This document shows, piece after piece, positions 3,599 to 29,408 of a stretch of 33,852 nucleotides of DNA. How positions within the stretch are numbered: the stretch's first letter is position 1; each line of letters opens with the position of its first letter. A model generated the notes under the pieces. The model worked only from the letters and a program-made list of their open reading frames with translations, ran no database searches and had not been told where the DNA came from. The position numbers were made by a program, and so were the translations under genes. The stretch is from Deltaproteobacteria bacterium (lineage in GTDB: Bacteria; Myxococcota_A; Polyangia; Haliangiales; Haliangiaceae): NCBI GenBank assembly GCA_013812655.1, contig JACCTC010000352.1:1-33852 (forward strand), read 5' to 3'.

Positions 3599-6138
<2,540 letters not shown>

Positions 6139-23783: not shown

Positions 23784-24425
23784 TCAGGGTTTGGTTCGCG
23801 CAAGCTCGAAACGGAGCGGGAGCCGCTTGTGATCGCTGGGTAGAATCAGTCCTCGTTGGTTGAGTTTGGCGAGCAAGTCTCCGATCGCGACGAGCTCCGC
23901 CTTGTTCGCGGCTGGAGCGAGCCGGACATGGACTGCGTGATCGGTGACCACGACGGTGCCGGGTGCGGCGAAGAGGTTCGCGAGAAGCTTCTTGGCCTCG
24001 CGCGGTCGCGTCATGTGCGGCGCGAGCAGGGTGGCGAGCTCGGACTCGGCGTTCGCGCAGACGACGCGGATCACGTCGATGACGGACTTGAGCTTGCCGT
24101 CGTGCTTCACGAGGGAGTCGGCGAGCTCGGTGTTCTCGACGAGGGCGTGCTTGGGAAGAAACGGTCGAAGGTCGAGGAGCTTCTCCTGGCGATCGAGTGC
24201 GTCGGCGAGATCCTGCGTGGCGGCGATGAAGCGTGGGTGGTCGGCGTTGAATCGCGCGAGATCGCGACGTGCGTCGCCTTCGGCGACTCGTGCGATCCGC
24301 AGCGCGCGTTCGAGACGGCGACGCGCTGGGTTGGGGATGATCGTTCCGGGCGGATAGGTCTCGACACCACGACCGTCGAGCTGGTTGATGCCCCAGCGCT
24401 CGACGCCGTGTTTGAATGCGTTCTC
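23784..24425 (-). pseudogene. Transposase, C-terminal part (separated by the RIT element)
   Basis: Reading from 24425 on the minus strand the frame gives ENAFKHGVERWGINQLDGRG and continues for 213 residues to the stop at 23784. It joins in frame to the upstream part ending HRWCQ at 27756. The result RWCQ-ENAFKH resembles the W-x-Q-E-N-x-F-K motif holding the catalytic Glu of this DDE transposase type. The rest is a helical region (RRLERALRIARVAEGDARRD) and a small C-terminal domain (LLANLFAAPGTVVVTDHAV) typical of these transposases. An internal ATG at 24110 gives a 108-aa open frame that could be mistaken for a separate gene. The two parts together make 725 aa. Confidence 0.85.
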
Positions 24426-24455
24426 TTGATTATGCCGACGTCGGCATAATCAAGA
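24424..24455. repeat. 32-bp perfect palindrome at the left RIT end
   Basis: TCTTGATTATGCCGAC (24424-24439) is followed directly by its exact reverse complement. It contains two copies of the ATTATGCC/GGCATAAT motif that recurs several times at both RIT ends and probably binds the recombinases. The palindrome includes the left copy of the TCTTGA core. Confidence 0.85.
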
Positions 24456-24484
24456 TTATGCCGAGCGCCGGATTATGCCGCGTC
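24450..24484 (+). repeat. Left 35-bp inverted repeat of the RIT element
   Basis: It begins TCAAGATTATGCCGAGCGCC and ends GATTATGCCGCGTC. It is an exact reverse complement of 27725-27759 and carries two ATTATGCC motifs 17 bp apart. Confidence 0.9.
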
Positions 24485-24528
24485 CGGCGGTGCCCTCGAC
24501 GATCCCCATGTTGGCGGGCGCGGCATAA

Positions 24529-25521
24529 TCAGAGGCTCTTGAGGAAGGCCATGACTTCGCTCGTAGCAGGTCGGTAGCGCCCCTTCTTGGTGCCGATCGG
24601 AGCCGTCCTCTCGAAGGCGCGCTCCTTCGCCGACAGGTCTGCGTCGAAGTACATCTGCGTCGTTTCGACGGACTCATGTCCGAGGATCAGGGCGATGACG
24701 GCGCTGTCGACACCCGCTTGCAGGAGGCGCACGGCGGTGGTGTGCCGCAGTACGTGCGGCGAGACCTTCTTGTGCGAGAGCGTCGGGCACTTGTCGGCAG
24801 CGAGGATCGCGTACTTGTCCACCAAGCGCTCCACTGCGTCTCGACTGAGGTGGCCACCGTGACGAGCCGGAAAGAGCGGCGCGGTAGGCGCGGCTCGGCG
24901 TTCGTCAATCCAGCGTCGGAGCAGCGGAGCCGTGTGGCGCCCGACTGGGGTGATGCGTTCCTTGCGACCCTTCCCGGTGCATCGGATCTGCGAGGTCGCA
25001 GCGATCGTGACGTCGTGGATGCAGAGGCGGATGATCTCGGAGACCCTCATCCCAGTCTCGATCGTTACGACGAGCAGCAAGTGATCGCGCCGGCCCAGCA
25101 AGCTGCTCTGGTCGGGCGCCGCGACCAGAGCAGCTACCTCCGGCTGGGTCAGGAAACCCACGACACGACGAGTGTGCCGCTTCTGCGGGATCGCGAGGAC
25201 TCGCTGGATCAGTGCACTGTAGGCAGGCTCCCGGAGGGCAAGGAAACGGAAGAACGATCGGATGGCAGCGAGCCGTACGTTGCGGGTTCGAACCGCATTC
25301 CCGCGTTCCTTCTCGAGGCTGTCGAGGAATGCCGCCACCAGCGATGCGTCGATGTCGGTGAGCGTGAACTTCGATGGGTCCTTGCCGAGACGCGCTTGTG
25401 CGAAGCGCAGAAGCAAGCAGAAGGCGTCACGGTAGGCCGCCACCGTGTTCGGGCTGACGGACTTTTGCCGCCGCAGCCGATCGGTGAAGAAGGCTTCGAG
25501 GTGGGGCGCCAGCGGAGTCAT
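24529..25521 (-). CDS. RIT tyrosine recombinase, third gene
   Basis: 330 aa from ATG 25521, which overlaps the preceding stop by 4 bp. A SAM-like core-binding domain (~5-105; SPNTVAAYRDAFCLLLRF) precedes the catalytic domain. Catalytic residues: Arg in TGMRVSEIIRL, Lys in GKGRKERITP, HVLRHTTAVRLL (H-x-x-R), GHESVETT and nucleophile Tyr in MYFDAD. It is closest in style to XerD/phage-type integrases and ends before the left inverted repeat. It should act together with the two upstream recombinases at the element ends. Confidence 0.93.
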   Translation of the reverse strand: MTPLAPHLEAFFTDRLRRQKSVSPNTVAAYRDAFCLLLRFAQARLGKDPSKFTLTDIDASLVAAFLDSLEKERGNAVRTRNVRLAAIRSFFRFLALREPAYSALIQRVLAIPQKRHTRRVVGFLTQPEVAALVAAPDQSSLLGRRDHLLLVVTIETGMRVSEIIRLCIHDVTIAATSQIRCTGKGRKERITPVGRHTAPLLRRWIDERRAAPTAPLFPARHGGHLSRDAVERLVDKYAILAADKCPTLSHKKVSPHVLRHTTAVRLLQAGVDSAVIALILGHESVETTQMYFDADLSAKERAFERTAPIGTKKGRYRPATSEVMAFLKSL

Positions 25522-26441
25522 GACCTTCCTCCGAGAGCGCGCTCGAGGCGCTGGTGGGCGAGCATGATGAGCTGCGGCGTGGCGGTCAGGTACCAGTAGG
25601 TAGACGACGGGCTGACATGGCCCAGGTACGTGGACAACAAAGGGAGCCGGGACTGGACGTCGACGCCTGCGCGGTACCAGTTGAGGAGCGTCGTGACGGC
25701 GAATCCATGACGAAGGTCGTGGATGCGGGGCCGCCTGGGTCGACGATCGGCGAGGTCTGCGCTCTTCAGAAGGCGGAGAAAGACGTGGTGGACTCCCCGA
25801 TAGTCGAGCCGGCTGCCGACCGACGACACGAGGAGGCTGGGACTCTTCGCGGGGCGGATCGTGCGATCGCGCTCTCGACCATACTTGGTGAGAGCGCGAA
25901 GCGTCGTGACTTCCAGGGGCACCAGGCGTGACTTGCCGAACTTGCTGTGTCGGACAAGCAGCAGCCCGTGACGCGGATCGAGATCGCTCCTGTCGAGCGC
26001 GAGCACTTCGCCGACGCGCATGCCCGTGCAGGCGAGCAGGCCGAGCAACGTGGTGTACGTCGAGGCGATGAACGGCGACCGCAGCGATCGGGCAGCGGTC
26101 AGCAAGGCTTGCACGTCTTCCTCCGAGTACACGTAGGGAGTCCCTCTCCGCCGGCGCCCCGGAAGAAGGTCAACGCTCGGGATCTCCGTCCGCGGATCGA
26201 GGGCGCTGACGTACTTTGCGAAGGGGCGCACGAGGCCGAGACGCGTCGCGAACCACGGTGGTCCTCCTCGCCCAGCCTGCGTGGCCCAGGTCAGCGCGAG
26301 TTGGGTGGTGATGAAGGCAGCGCTACTCTCGTCGAGAAACGTGACGAAGCCCGGGAGCAGCCGGCCTGCGCGATCGAGCTTGTAGCCGAGGGCGCGGCGG
26401 ACGCCGAGGTAGTCGCGGAGAATCCGGTGGAGGTCGATCAT
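25518..26441 (-). CDS. RIT tyrosine recombinase, second gene
   Basis: 307 aa from ATG 26441 (MIDLHRILRDYLGVRRALGY). The N-terminal core-binding domain is shorter than in the other two. Catalytic residues: Arg in TGMRVGEVLAL, Lys in HSKFGKSRLVPL, HDLRHGFAVTTL (H-x-x-R), YLGHVSPSST (His) and Tyr in YWYLTATP. The active site is complete. It overlaps its neighbours by 4 bp on both sides, so the three proteins should be made in fixed proportion. Confidence 0.93.
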   Translation of the reverse strand: MIDLHRILRDYLGVRRALGYKLDRAGRLLPGFVTFLDESSAAFITTQLALTWATQAGRGGPPWFATRLGLVRPFAKYVSALDPRTEIPSVDLLPGRRRRGTPYVYSEEDVQALLTAARSLRSPFIASTYTTLLGLLACTGMRVGEVLALDRSDLDPRHGLLLVRHSKFGKSRLVPLEVTTLRALTKYGRERDRTIRPAKSPSLLVSSVGSRLDYRGVHHVFLRLLKSADLADRRPRRPRIHDLRHGFAVTTLLNWYRAGVDVQSRLPLLSTYLGHVSPSSTYWYLTATPQLIMLAHQRLERALGGRS

Positions 26442-27634
26442 GACGACCGTCCCGGCCAGGGGCGGGCAAGTGTCCGCAGGCGGGTCGTGTCGACCTTTGC
26501 GTAGATCGCCGTTGTATCTGTGGCCCGATGGCGAAGGGCGTGCGCGATCTCGGTCAGCGAACCGCCTTGTCGGAGCATCTCCGTGGCGACGGTGTGGCGG
26601 AGGCGATGGGCGAATACGGGCGCAAGGTCGGCTCGCTTCGAAGCCCTGAACACGATCTGCGTGACGGTCGACGCGCCCAGTCCTCGCAACGGCGCCCTCA
26701 CGCGAAGAAACAGACTACGGGTCGAGGGACGTCCTCGGACCCGCAGGTACGCGACCAGCGCTTGGCCGATGTCCTCCGGCAGCGGCAACTCGCTGATCAC
26801 GGAGCCCTTGCCCCGGATGACGATCACCCCATCGGACCATCGGATATCATCGAGCAACAGCGTCCGGACTTCGCAGGCGCGAAGACCGAGCCGCGCCAGG
26901 AGCAACAGGATCGCGAAGTCTCGCTTTCCCATCGCAGTGCGCCGATCGCAGCTCGATAGGAGCTGGTCAACATCCTCGGCGACCAGCGCCTTGGGCAGTC
27001 CAGTGAGCCGCCACCCTGCGACGGCGGGCACGGCGCCGCGGAGATCGACTTCGGCTCGGCCGCTCAAGTACAGGTAGCGAAGAAACGAGCGCAGTACCGT
27101 CGTGATCACCTTCGTCGAGCCGACGGAGTATTGCTTCGACTCTTGGAGGACGAAACCAGTGACATCAGCAGCAGCGAGGCTGTCGACGTCAGGATGGCGA
27201 TCGAGGAACCGCTTCGTGAAATGCTCGTGGGACGCAATCGTCGGCGATCCGAGCCCACGCTCCTGCTCGAGATGCGCGAGATAGCGGCCGACGAGAGCGT
27301 CGGCTGGGTCTTGTCGAATCGGAGCCTCGACCGCAGACGAGATGGCGCCCTTCGTCGAGAGGAACGCCAAAATCGGCCGAAGGGAACGTGTTGACACGAA
27401 CTGGGTGCGGCGAGCTCGGCGCCGAGCGCGAATGAAACGAGCCGCGAGCGTCGAAGTCAGCGCCGAAAGACAAAGCGACCGCCGATCCAGCCACCGACTG
27501 AGCTGTCGGGTGAGTCGCAGGAGCTGCGCCGCCGACAACGGCGTGTATCCCAGCTCCAGCAAGTGAAGCCGAAGACCATCGGCGTAGGGACCGAGCGGCC
27601 CAGTGAAGCTGACTGGGGATGCATCTTGAACCAT
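26438..27634 (-). CDS. RIT tyrosine recombinase, first gene
   Basis: 398 aa, the longest of the trio, starting at ATG 27634. A perfect Shine-Dalgarno AAGGAGGT (27645-27638) stands 3 bp upstream, so this gene drives translation of the coupled trio. The N-terminal ~110 residues (LGYTPLSAAQLLRLTRQLSRW) are an extra domain before the core-binding domain (~115-205). Catalytic residues: Arg in LGLRACEVRTLLL, HRLRHTVATEML (H-x-x-R), His in ALRHRATDTT and Tyr in AIYAKVD. The promoter should lie between here and the right inverted repeat (27646-27724). Confidence 0.93.
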   Translation of the reverse strand: MVQDASPVSFTGPLGPYADGLRLHLLELGYTPLSAAQLLRLTRQLSRWLDRRSLCLSALTSTLAARFIRARRRARRTQFVSTRSLRPILAFLSTKGAISSAVEAPIRQDPADALVGRYLAHLEQERGLGSPTIASHEHFTKRFLDRHPDVDSLAAADVTGFVLQESKQYSVGSTKVITTVLRSFLRYLYLSGRAEVDLRGAVPAVAGWRLTGLPKALVAEDVDQLLSSCDRRTAMGKRDFAILLLLARLGLRACEVRTLLLDDIRWSDGVIVIRGKGSVISELPLPEDIGQALVAYLRVRGRPSTRSLFLRVRAPLRGLGASTVTQIVFRASKRADLAPVFAHRLRHTVATEMLRQGGSLTEIAHALRHRATDTTAIYAKVDTTRLRTLARPWPGRSS

Positions 27635-27724
27635 GTGACCTCCTTGTCCGGCACCAAGCCGGAGCGGAGATCACGACGGATTATGCCGACTTCACGGCAC
27701 TATCCTCGTCGGGGGTCGTCAGGC

Positions 27725-27759
27725 GACGCGGCATAATCCGGCGCTCGGCATAATCTTGA
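27725..27759 (-). repeat. Right 35-bp inverted repeat of the RIT element
   Basis: Exact reverse complement of 24450-24484. Its outer six bases TCTTGA are also the right copy of the core direct repeat. Another ATTATGCC motif lies further inside at about 27681. Confidence 0.9.
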
Positions 27760-29291
27760 CACCAGCGGTGCCACAAGATCTCGACGAGGCGCTCGGCCGG
27801 CAGCGTCGAACTCGCCAGGAAGTTCACTTGCCGTCCGTCTTCGGTGCGCACCGCGATCCGACGAATGCGTCCTCGCTTCTGGCCGAGGTTGCGCAGAGGA
27901 CCTTCGTACAGTCCGACGTGCTCGCCGGCGATCGTGATCGGCGCGAAGACCGTCGTCGGAAGCTCGGGGTACGGCGCGCGCTCGTACGTGACGAAGTCGA
28001 AGTGCGAATCGCGAAGCGCCGCGAGCAGCTCGGCGTGGGCGCCCGCGCGATCGAAGGCGAGCACGATCTGCTCGTCGTCACCGAGTGCCTCGCGCAGGCG
28101 CGCGGCGACCGGTGGCAGCCACGTTGCCAGGCTGTCATGCGAGGGGACCGCGACGCGAAACACCGGGATCCCATCCTCGTCGTGCACGTAGTAATCGCTC
28201 GTGCCGGGCAGGACCCGACGGTCCTGCATGCGCCAGCCCTTTCGCACGACCTGCTTGCCGGTGTACGGGCGCAGGTGGTTGTCGACGTAGAACACGGCGG
28301 GACCGCCGTCGTGCTTCGTCGTCGCGAGCAGGCGCTCGGTCATCTGTCGCTCGAGAGCGGCGCCGCCATCGGTTTGCTCGAGCAAACGGTAGAGCAGCTT
28401 GCGGACGCCGCTCGCCGTCGGCACGCGCTCGGCGCGCAGCAGCGTCGCGCCGCTCGGTGTCGCGAGCCGGCGCACGCCTTCCACCACCAGCTGACGGATC
28501 GCGAGCGCGCAGATCACCGCATCGAGTGCGATCCGCAGGCCGTCGGGATGGCGCCCCACAAACGCGGTCTGCGCCTCTTCGTACAGACCGAGCTCGCCGA
28601 CGAGTGCGAGCAAGATCCAACACCCAGCGTGCTGCACCACCTTGCCACCACGCACGGGCTGCGCGGTCATCGGCACGATCTCGTCGCTCTCTTCCGGGGT
28701 CGGCTTGCTCGATGGCTCGCCCAGATCGTCCGTCGTGGACCACAGCGGCAGCTGACTTTCCGACGAGGTCGATGCCGGTGCGTCGATCGCCGCAGTCGCC
28801 TTCGTACGCCGGCTGGCTTGCTCGCGCCGCCAGTGCTCCCAGACCATCCACACCGTCGAGTACGCGCGCCGATCTCGTCGCGGCTGTTCGCGATGCGCGT
28901 CGATCGGCATCCGACCCTCGTCGAACATCGCGAACCATGCGGCGCGCACCTCGGGCGTCACCTTTCCGGACTTGCCTTGCCGCGGCACGATTACGGCACC
29001 GAGCCCGCCCACCTCCTCGGTCCGACGCAGCCGCCGCAAGTGCTCGCTCGTCATCCCGAACGCCGCCGACAATCGACCGATACGGAACTCGCCTGTCTTC
29101 GCCAGCGTTACCAACAGCACGTTGCGAGGGCCGCGATCGTCGTCATCCTCGTCGTACACGCCGATCAGCGTCCCGCCCACGTACACGCTCGCCAGGGTTC
29201 CCTGAACGACCACCGTACCCTCCGCCGAGAAGCGGCGAATCTCACCAAACGGCGACGGCGGTTCCGGCAGCACGAACTCGAGAGCTTCCAT
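27756..29291 (-). pseudogene. Transposase, N-terminal part (interrupted by the RIT element)
   Basis: 512 native codons from ATG 29291 (MEALEFVLPEPPSPFGEIRRF); a longer open frame begins at 29378. The chain runs on into the RIT end and stops at 27681, adding foreign residues (DYAERRIMPRRL...). An N-terminal segment with GTVVVQGTLASVYVGGTLIGV is followed by an HTH (FRIGRLSAAFGMTSEHLRRLRR, ~79-100). The DDE domain has Asp in VFYVDNHLRPYTGKQ and Asp in QIVLAFDRAGAH; the third acidic residue is most likely the Glu of RWCQ-EN, lying beyond the RIT element. Without its C-terminal 213 residues the enzyme should be inactive. Confidence 0.85.
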
Positions 29292-29408
29292 CGCTCCCAA
29301 GACATCCGCCACCGATCCGAAATTCCAAACGAGGTCGCTTTTCTCGCACCTTTTTTCGATCTGTGTCGCACGCCGCAACCCCGTGGAATTCGATCACCTC
29401 GCGAGCGG

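Follow-up and report, generated by a model that had tools for sequence, protein, structure and literature searches.

Palindrome placement at the ends of RIT elements points to a probable excised form with two crossover slots

Results

The DNA analysed here, a window of 33,852 nucleotides from a Deltaproteobacteria bacterium (GenBank assembly GCA_013812655.1, contig JACCTC010000352.1), holds a RIT element in which three tyrosine recombinase genes lie between inverted repeats and interrupt a transposase-like gene (Table 1). All three genes are on the minus strand, adjoining ones overlapping by 4 bp, and their likeness to other trios in tblastn gives the order A-B-C. RitA, RitB and RitC each match Pfam Phage_integrase, and by pattern match the Arg box, the HxLRH box and the C-terminal Tyr are present in all three; in RitA one SAM-like domain was found by Pfam at residues 117-189, preceded by about 115 residues without domain assignment. 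The inverted repeats (24450-24484 and 27725-27759) are 35 bp long and 100% complementary, with 3,310 bp between their outer edges. A sequence-only reading of this stretch had described three coupled recombinases with complete active sites between perfect 35-bp repeats and had assigned them to a RIT element, which agrees with our results, as gene trio, repeats and palindrome are all present.

The two ends of the element differ. Each 35-bp repeat splits into a 6-bp core TCAAGA and a 29-bp arm, and outside the core of the ritC end lie a 20-bp palindrome and, beyond it, a second core. Because all three hexamers (X', Y and T in the notation below) are TCAAGA, palindrome and cores are perfect over 32 bp (24424-24455), overlapping one inverted repeat. 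The palindrome scan recovered the 20-bp spacer noticed earlier at one end only; apart from the 32-bp palindrome, it gave one perfect palindrome of 16 bp and no others of at least 16 bp in the window. The eight ATTATGCC motifs that had been reported across both ends were also recounted: 8 occurrences over both strands, all inside 24429-27754, against 0.12 expected from window shuffles. In the window's own genome, the 13-bp core-arm motif was found nowhere outside the element. The outer hexamer at 24424-24429 forms a 6-bp direct repeat with 27754-27759, and, read in the light of the relatives, it is the outer boundary of the ritC end, with the 20-bp palindrome (24430-24449) as part of the element. 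Of the ends as first described, the 35-bp repeats stand, but the repeat consists of core plus arm and the ritC-end boundary moves to 24424-24429 from 24450.

Table 1. Features of the RIT element in the window and of the gene that it interrupts
Feature	Position	Strand	Description
ritA	26438..27634	-	tyrosine recombinase, 398 aa
ritB	25518..26441	-	tyrosine recombinase, 307 aa
ritC	24529..25521	-	tyrosine recombinase, 330 aa
X hexamer TCTTGA (X' = TCAAGA)	24424..24429	+	outer core, palindrome end
20-bp perfect palindrome TTATGCCGACGTCGGCATAA	24430..24449	.	two inverted near-copies of the arm motif
Y hexamer TCAAGA	24450..24455	+	inner core, predicted slot h2, adjoins ritC end
ritC-end arm	24456..24484	+	29 bp of the 35-bp inverted repeat; two direct ATTATGCC-type motifs
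Third ATTATGCC motif of ritC end, inverted	24522..24529	-	
Third ATTATGCC motif of ritA end, inverted	27680..27687	+	
ritA-end arm	27725..27753	-	29 bp of the 35-bp inverted repeat
T hexamer TCAAGA	27754..27759	-	putatively the target's own core, by the rule found in relatives
Target gene, N-terminal part	27760..29378	-	539 aa, transposase-like
Target gene, C-terminal part	23784..24423	-	214 aa counted from the hexamer on

The end structure had been thought informative on the mechanism, and comparing the ends of relatives bore this out. We write an element as flank-X-palindrome-Y-body-T-flank, where X, Y and T are hexamers, Y and T are read toward the body and X' is the reverse complement of X. 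Scanning 52 complete trios gave 30 palindrome calls; inspection by eye removed 7 of them and one more, L085, duplicated L066, so that 22 remained. Automatic calls at L046, L063, L078, L127 and L135 were dropped as chance matches or contig ends, L047 with its two palindromes was excluded from the single-end table, and L109 was re-read by eye. Seven more elements were read by eye (L007, L072, L075, L084, L103, L109 and L110), and 18 were added from a rhizobial clade of 24 loci, in which L112 and L113 had been counted already and L140 (no palindrome), L150 (cut), L155 (flanks as in L148) and L158 (place as in L157) were left out. Among the 47 curated elements, window included, 26 have the palindrome at the ritA end and 21 have it at the ritC end, and this placement at either end is evident from comparing the relatives.

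The hexamers of an element resemble each other. With one element taken per clade (24 elements), the mean distance among X', Y and T was 0.68 of 6, compared with 3.85 after shuffling between clades, and none of 20,000 such shuffles reached so low a value. The differences in this set are confined to positions 1-4, positions 5 and 6 (the arm side in Y and T) being invariant; in the rhizobial set positions 5 and 6 differ 3 and 4 times. The palindrome halves in turn match the adjoining arm at 7.32 of 10 positions, compared with 5.80 for the arms of other elements and a maximum of 6.82 in 5,000 shuffles (n=19). As the palindrome halves resemble the adjoining arms, each hexamer of the module would lie between inverted half-sites in the joint, and a core between inverted half-sites is the usual layout for tyrosine recombinases. 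In the target flanks, arm-like sequence did not rise above that in shuffled flanks.

The possibilities can be told apart in the rhizobial copies thanks to their differing hexamers. In S. meliloti LMB1, the copy with the palindrome at the ritA end (L113) has GGCGGT as Y and GCAGGT as X', and two copies with the palindrome at the ritC end (L112 and L138) have GGCGGT as X' and GCAGGT as Y; the T hexamers of L113, L112 and L138 all differ (GCAGGT, AGCTGT and TGCCGT). The bodies of L112 and L113 are 99.97% identical, and their 32-bp modules are identical and equally oriented to the body, yet lie at opposite ends. As far as their sequences tell, the two copies are a circular permutation of one joint, Aend-GGCGGT-palindrome-GCAGGT-Cend, which such sibling copies share. 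One further opposite-end pair matching in both slots was found in each of the strains T10 (L137, L149), M270 (L141, L144, on two plasmids) and NXC12 (L145, L154). Over 13 opposite-end pairs within strains, hexamers compared by slot matched in 14 of 26 cases and hexamers compared by position in 4 of 26; between strains the figures were 23 and 21 of 178. An independent check comes from imperfect palindromes, whose centre is equally oriented to the body at either end: in S. fredii the ritA-end copies L147 and L152 agree in this with the ritC-end copies L151 and L153, and in Mesorhizobium AR02 L101 and L102 (ritA end) agree with L100 (ritC end), which a flip in place would not produce. Near-identical copies in relatives occupy different targets, the same palindrome travelling with the same body, so that the spacer does not belong to the target; the earlier reading had named a spacer belonging to the target as an outcome that would count against it. 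In an Ideonella pair (L004/L007) whose surroundings are 98% identical, the 32-bp module is exactly inverted.

The side of the target on which the palindrome lies was constant. At an IS66 site of the 'Q-T/S-A/C-K' type, the palindrome is on the gene's upstream side in all 21 tabled insertions (19 rhizobial ones, L130 and L131; flanks read by eye), which comprise 11 ritA-end and 10 ritC-end elements. Nine insertions in the HxxRH box of other recombinases, likewise read by eye, all have it on the RH side, with body orientations of 5 and 4. As the palindrome side is constant and the body orientation mixed at each target site, it appears that the target fixes the side of the palindrome and leaves the body free. 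Ten target pieces run against Pfam all belonged to enzyme families: Mutator/IS256, IstB, IS91 zinc-binding plus Y2 transposase, AAA_25, IS66 (twice), DDE_5, rve and Phage_integrase (twice); further targets were read by eye, a few of them (e.g. L061, L072, L084) without identification. The hexamer often falls on codons of conserved motifs in enzymes of other mobile elements (positions by eye), namely the recombinase HxxR box, IS66, the IS91 zinc finger, the IstB Walker B and DDE residues, which we take to be functional residues.

Two insertions indicate which hexamer is native. The target of L147, TRAP transporter genes, stands intact in both Sinorhizobium sp. CCBAU 05631 and S. fredii NGR234, where the matches of the two flanks adjoin, overlapping by 2 bp. 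Alignment of the T-side query begins at its first base in both relatives, so the whole T hexamer is native, and the X-side query aligns only to 303 of 307 in both, i.e. two bases into X. For L112, nine records have both flanks side by side and no element; the T-side query is aligned through to the final base of T in all nine, and the X-side query ends at 347 or 350 of 351, inside X, in eight. From these alignments, in L147 and L112 T is identified as native and X as carried. L148 and L157 share target flanks, X' and T of L148 both being TGCCGT and L157 combining the T hexamer TGCCGT with a foreign X'. On the plasmid of L147, L153 has as X' the Y of L147 (GGCCGT) and as Y the unusual native T of L147 (ATTTGT) plus the preceding C (CATTTGT), and this pair is the clearest candidate for T turning into the next slot hexamer.

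Other forms were found as well. Two elements, L047 and L069, carry a palindrome at each end and X-type flanks on both sides, reading RH... outward on either side, and L127 has no palindrome and two T-type flanks; L121 has the same look as L127, but one of its flanks is only 3 bases long. We infer that L047/L069 and L127, perhaps also L121, are reciprocal products of recombination between copies with the palindrome at the ritA end and copies with it at the ritC end. At the contig end of L135 (4401), the hexamer of the ritC end is followed by the first 7 nt of palindrome sequence in place of a target flank, which would fit a circle joint, a tandem or a double-palindrome copy. The L052 trio has palindrome-like modules at both ends (1058-1121 and 5158-5221), 4.1 kb apart and with differing hexamers.

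When the window element is removed with one TCAAGA kept, an open frame of 754 aa in total runs through the empty site, with HRWCQ meeting ENAFKHG there. Taken separately, the two parts of the target gene align with residues 3-394 and 642-734 of a single uninterrupted Streptomyces 'putative transposase', which has RWRIENAIK at the apparently equivalent motif (by eye) and, at 25% identity, is the only plasmid match of the target gene. No match was found at E 1e-40 in 234 other genomes of the phylum, nor a second copy in the window's own genome, where only three matches of 34-61 bp were obtained. L003, whose RitA is 77% identical to that of the window, is inserted at the same place of a related target gene. 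Its palindrome lies on the same target side as in the window but at the ritA end, so its body points the opposite way; its contig holds a second, nested trio, and the ritC end of L003 is therefore not delimited. The window's genome carries a second RIT (contig C163, 2607-2626; L055) with its own palindrome of 9/10 pairs and GTGTCG as both X' and Y, its ritC end lying beyond the contig.

RITs were also seen nested in ritB or ritC of other RITs (L003/L068 229-5252, L066 2731-9462, L080-L083), at or near HxxRH codons according to tblastn breakpoints; such nesting would explain truncated trios on pHG1 and similar plasmids. In L074, L076 and L104, from three different RIT families, one end lacks the palindrome and directly adjoins a flank (...CGACGCCAAGCTAAAAACGCTCTG) that is much alike in all three. 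As an IS91-family transposase gene is annotated beside that flank at the site of L104 (L091), these ends may have been cut off by an IS91-type insertion. In L063 (8211-8245, Mesorhizobium) and L140 (4297 onward, Sinorhizobium), other sequence with GGAGCGGGTTAGTCC, which in L140 forms an inverted repeat, replaces the palindrome, and it is perhaps an insertion sequence targeting the palindrome.

Discussion

It is likely, with a probability that we put at roughly 80%, that RIT elements move in an excised form whose joint, Aend-h1-palindrome-h2-Cend, would offer two usable crossover slots. The excised form is probably a circle. In the joint, each hexamer would lie between two inverted recombinase half-sites, one in the arm and one in the palindrome half, and the joint would hold two head-to-head crossover sites with the target recognised in one polarity. 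After crossover at h1 the palindrome would lie at the ritC end and h2 would be the inner hexamer Y, and after crossover at h2 the palindrome would lie at the ritA end and h1 would be the inner one; each place would presumably be cut by a particular Rit protein. The palindrome would keep the same target side, and the gene body could point either way. The carried hexamer would stay beside the palindrome as X, and the target's own hexamer would end next to the body as T. On exit T could become a new slot hexamer, so the two slots would record earlier targets, and the window copy presumably follows the same rules. We find it probable, if somewhat less so, that the two-slot site is reversible, that the target fixes its polarity with the body free in either orientation, and that one slot is overwritten each round with the hexamer of the last target, so that X, Y and T of every copy could be read as a record of as many as three landing sites. 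The two-slot reading explains the one-end palindrome, the differing ends of close copies and the double-palindrome and palindrome-free forms. By comparison with its relatives, the window element is seen as an ordinary member of the RIT family, and its asymmetric end would be explained by them.

The body could alternatively flip in place by recombination between the inverted sites Y and T with the location unchanged, and this would suit the window and L003, which sit at the same place of related target genes with opposite bodies, as well as L100 and L101, which sit in opposite orientations in duplicated copies of one target. Under such a flip, the orientation of the palindrome to the flank would stay constant, yet L101 has its imperfect palindrome reversed compared with L100 and constant to the body, and the hexamers common to copies in different targets need movement, which makes an in-place flip unlikely. 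The palindrome could also act as a single-stranded hairpin like integron attC sites, the pairing of X with Y merely stabilising it, and the module is indeed palindromic with X' equal to Y in 14 of the 47 elements. The two differ in the other 33, among them 19 of the 20 rhizobial ones, which means that pairing of the flanking hexamers is not required, and the palindrome halves track the arm motif; we regard the hairpin as quite improbable. The small distance among X', Y and T, all equal in 10 of the 24 elements taken one per clade, might mean that the target must be identical to the carried hexamer and that no hexamers are acquired. For the rhizobial clade this is already contradicted by the three different hexamers in 13 of 20 copies, one donor pair was found with different targets, and the native T of L147 and L112 is unlike X, so that exact identity is very improbable as a general rule. 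That the palindrome marks a fixed functional end, e.g. the end cut first, as the sequence-only reading had suggested, is hardly credible, even though the window has it at the ritC end only and the available part of PMC3414803 describes inverted repeat and overlapping palindromic sequence at ritA and ritC, respectively, because it lies at the ritA end in 26 of 47 elements, at either end in nearly identical bodies, and at opposite body ends in the window and L003 within a related transposase target. The other idea of that reading, a scar of an earlier event, comes close to the picture from the relatives in so far as earlier targets can be the source of hexamers beside the palindrome; the asymmetry itself belongs to no one end.

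Several points weigh against the two-slot joint. No circle and no transposition were observed. The loci were picked from the better RitA matches and not at random, 22 of the 52 complete trios had no palindrome call in addition to the 7 calls rejected by eye, and the palindromes of L109 and L110 are degenerate and were read by eye. Contig ends, decay and insertions account for some of the trios without a call. L123, L124 and L126, three trios that the search around the Ideonella genome yielded from two genomes, have similar upstream sequence and no clear inverted repeat or palindrome; they are possibly non-mobile or have another end type. Of the 13 within-strain opposite-end pairs, both hexamers agree in 5 and a single one in 4, the remaining 4 sharing neither (L101/L100, L146/L156, L157/L156 and L147/L151), and L156 is out of line with its strain mates; pairs matching in neither slot would be expected if copies had since moved or had arrived separately. 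One L112 relative (Allorhizobium, 86.4% identity) reaches 351 of 351 and is non-discriminating, and 5 of the 8 listed weaker L112 T-side matches (80-85%) stop short of the end of T. The carry-over of T is based on one clear pair, in which the carried piece is 7 nt and not 6, and in the window all three hexamers are equal and thus cannot tell which came from where.

Recombinases like those of RITs occur widely, with matches to the window RitA (other recombinases included) in 914 of 72,556 plasmid records, yet their mechanism was listed as untested in 2023 in the part of PMC10214605 at hand. The two-slot reading would let the order of insertions be read from the hexamers and makes sharp predictions for outward PCR. 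The RIT targets share a theme, the enzymes of other mobile elements.

RIT elements are already known, and the two-slot joint is a new, testable account of their insertion. In the sections available to us, they are described as three overlapping tyrosine recombinase genes A-B-C of about 3.5 kb with inverted repeats of roughly 28-34 bp (PMC3414803, PMC2864759, PMC10214605), with two core-binding domains in RitA and an extra C-terminal helix in RitC (PMC8138268). From the same sources, Van Houdt 2012 reported a 28-9-bp inverted repeat with an overlapping palindromic sequence, end variation and trios in complex combinations (PMC3414803), and the CH34 genome paper of 2010 described radC and an IS66 tnpA as places of insertion (PMC2864759). 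The window element shares with these the gene trio, length class, inverted repeats, overlapping palindrome and insertion into a transposase gene. The parts seen of PMC3414803, PMC2864759 and PMC10214605 give no role of the palindrome, no core hexamers and no either-end placement, and the last lists target specificity, empty sites and movement of RITs as not tested. As far as open-licence PMC papers were accessible, no two-slot account was found among them, Ricker 2013 and Van Houdt 2009 lying outside that scope.

Among other systems, the available text on SE elements describes a 6-bp spacer, the target's 6 bp going to one end and a carried 6 bp, the 'fingerprint', to the other (PMC10214605). 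SE elements differ in having four core genes, intA-tfp-intB-srap, whereas the window has three genes, all for tyrosine recombinases, and, as far as described there, in having one joint spacer between fixed ends in contrast to the two usable slots proposed around the RIT palindrome. The SE-like hexamer rule was found in the relatives L147 and L112, and the window cannot resolve it. Tn554 has TnpA-TnpB-TnpC, of which TnpC is not known as part of a recombinase trio, compared with the three tyrosine recombinases of the window. It resembles RITs in its tyrosine recombinases and in copying 6 bp from one donor side to the other side of the new location, and no palindromic module is mentioned for it in the portion of PMC10214605 consulted; the probable carry-over of T in L147/L153 parallels the fingerprint rule described there for both SEs and Tn554. 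GInts, in the accessible part of PMC5385486, likewise have three recombinases, staggered cuts of 6-7 nt and changing attachment sequences, but they need a fourth gene and form islands up to at least 76 kb, unlike the three genes of the window, and a term search of that text gave no mention of a palindrome.

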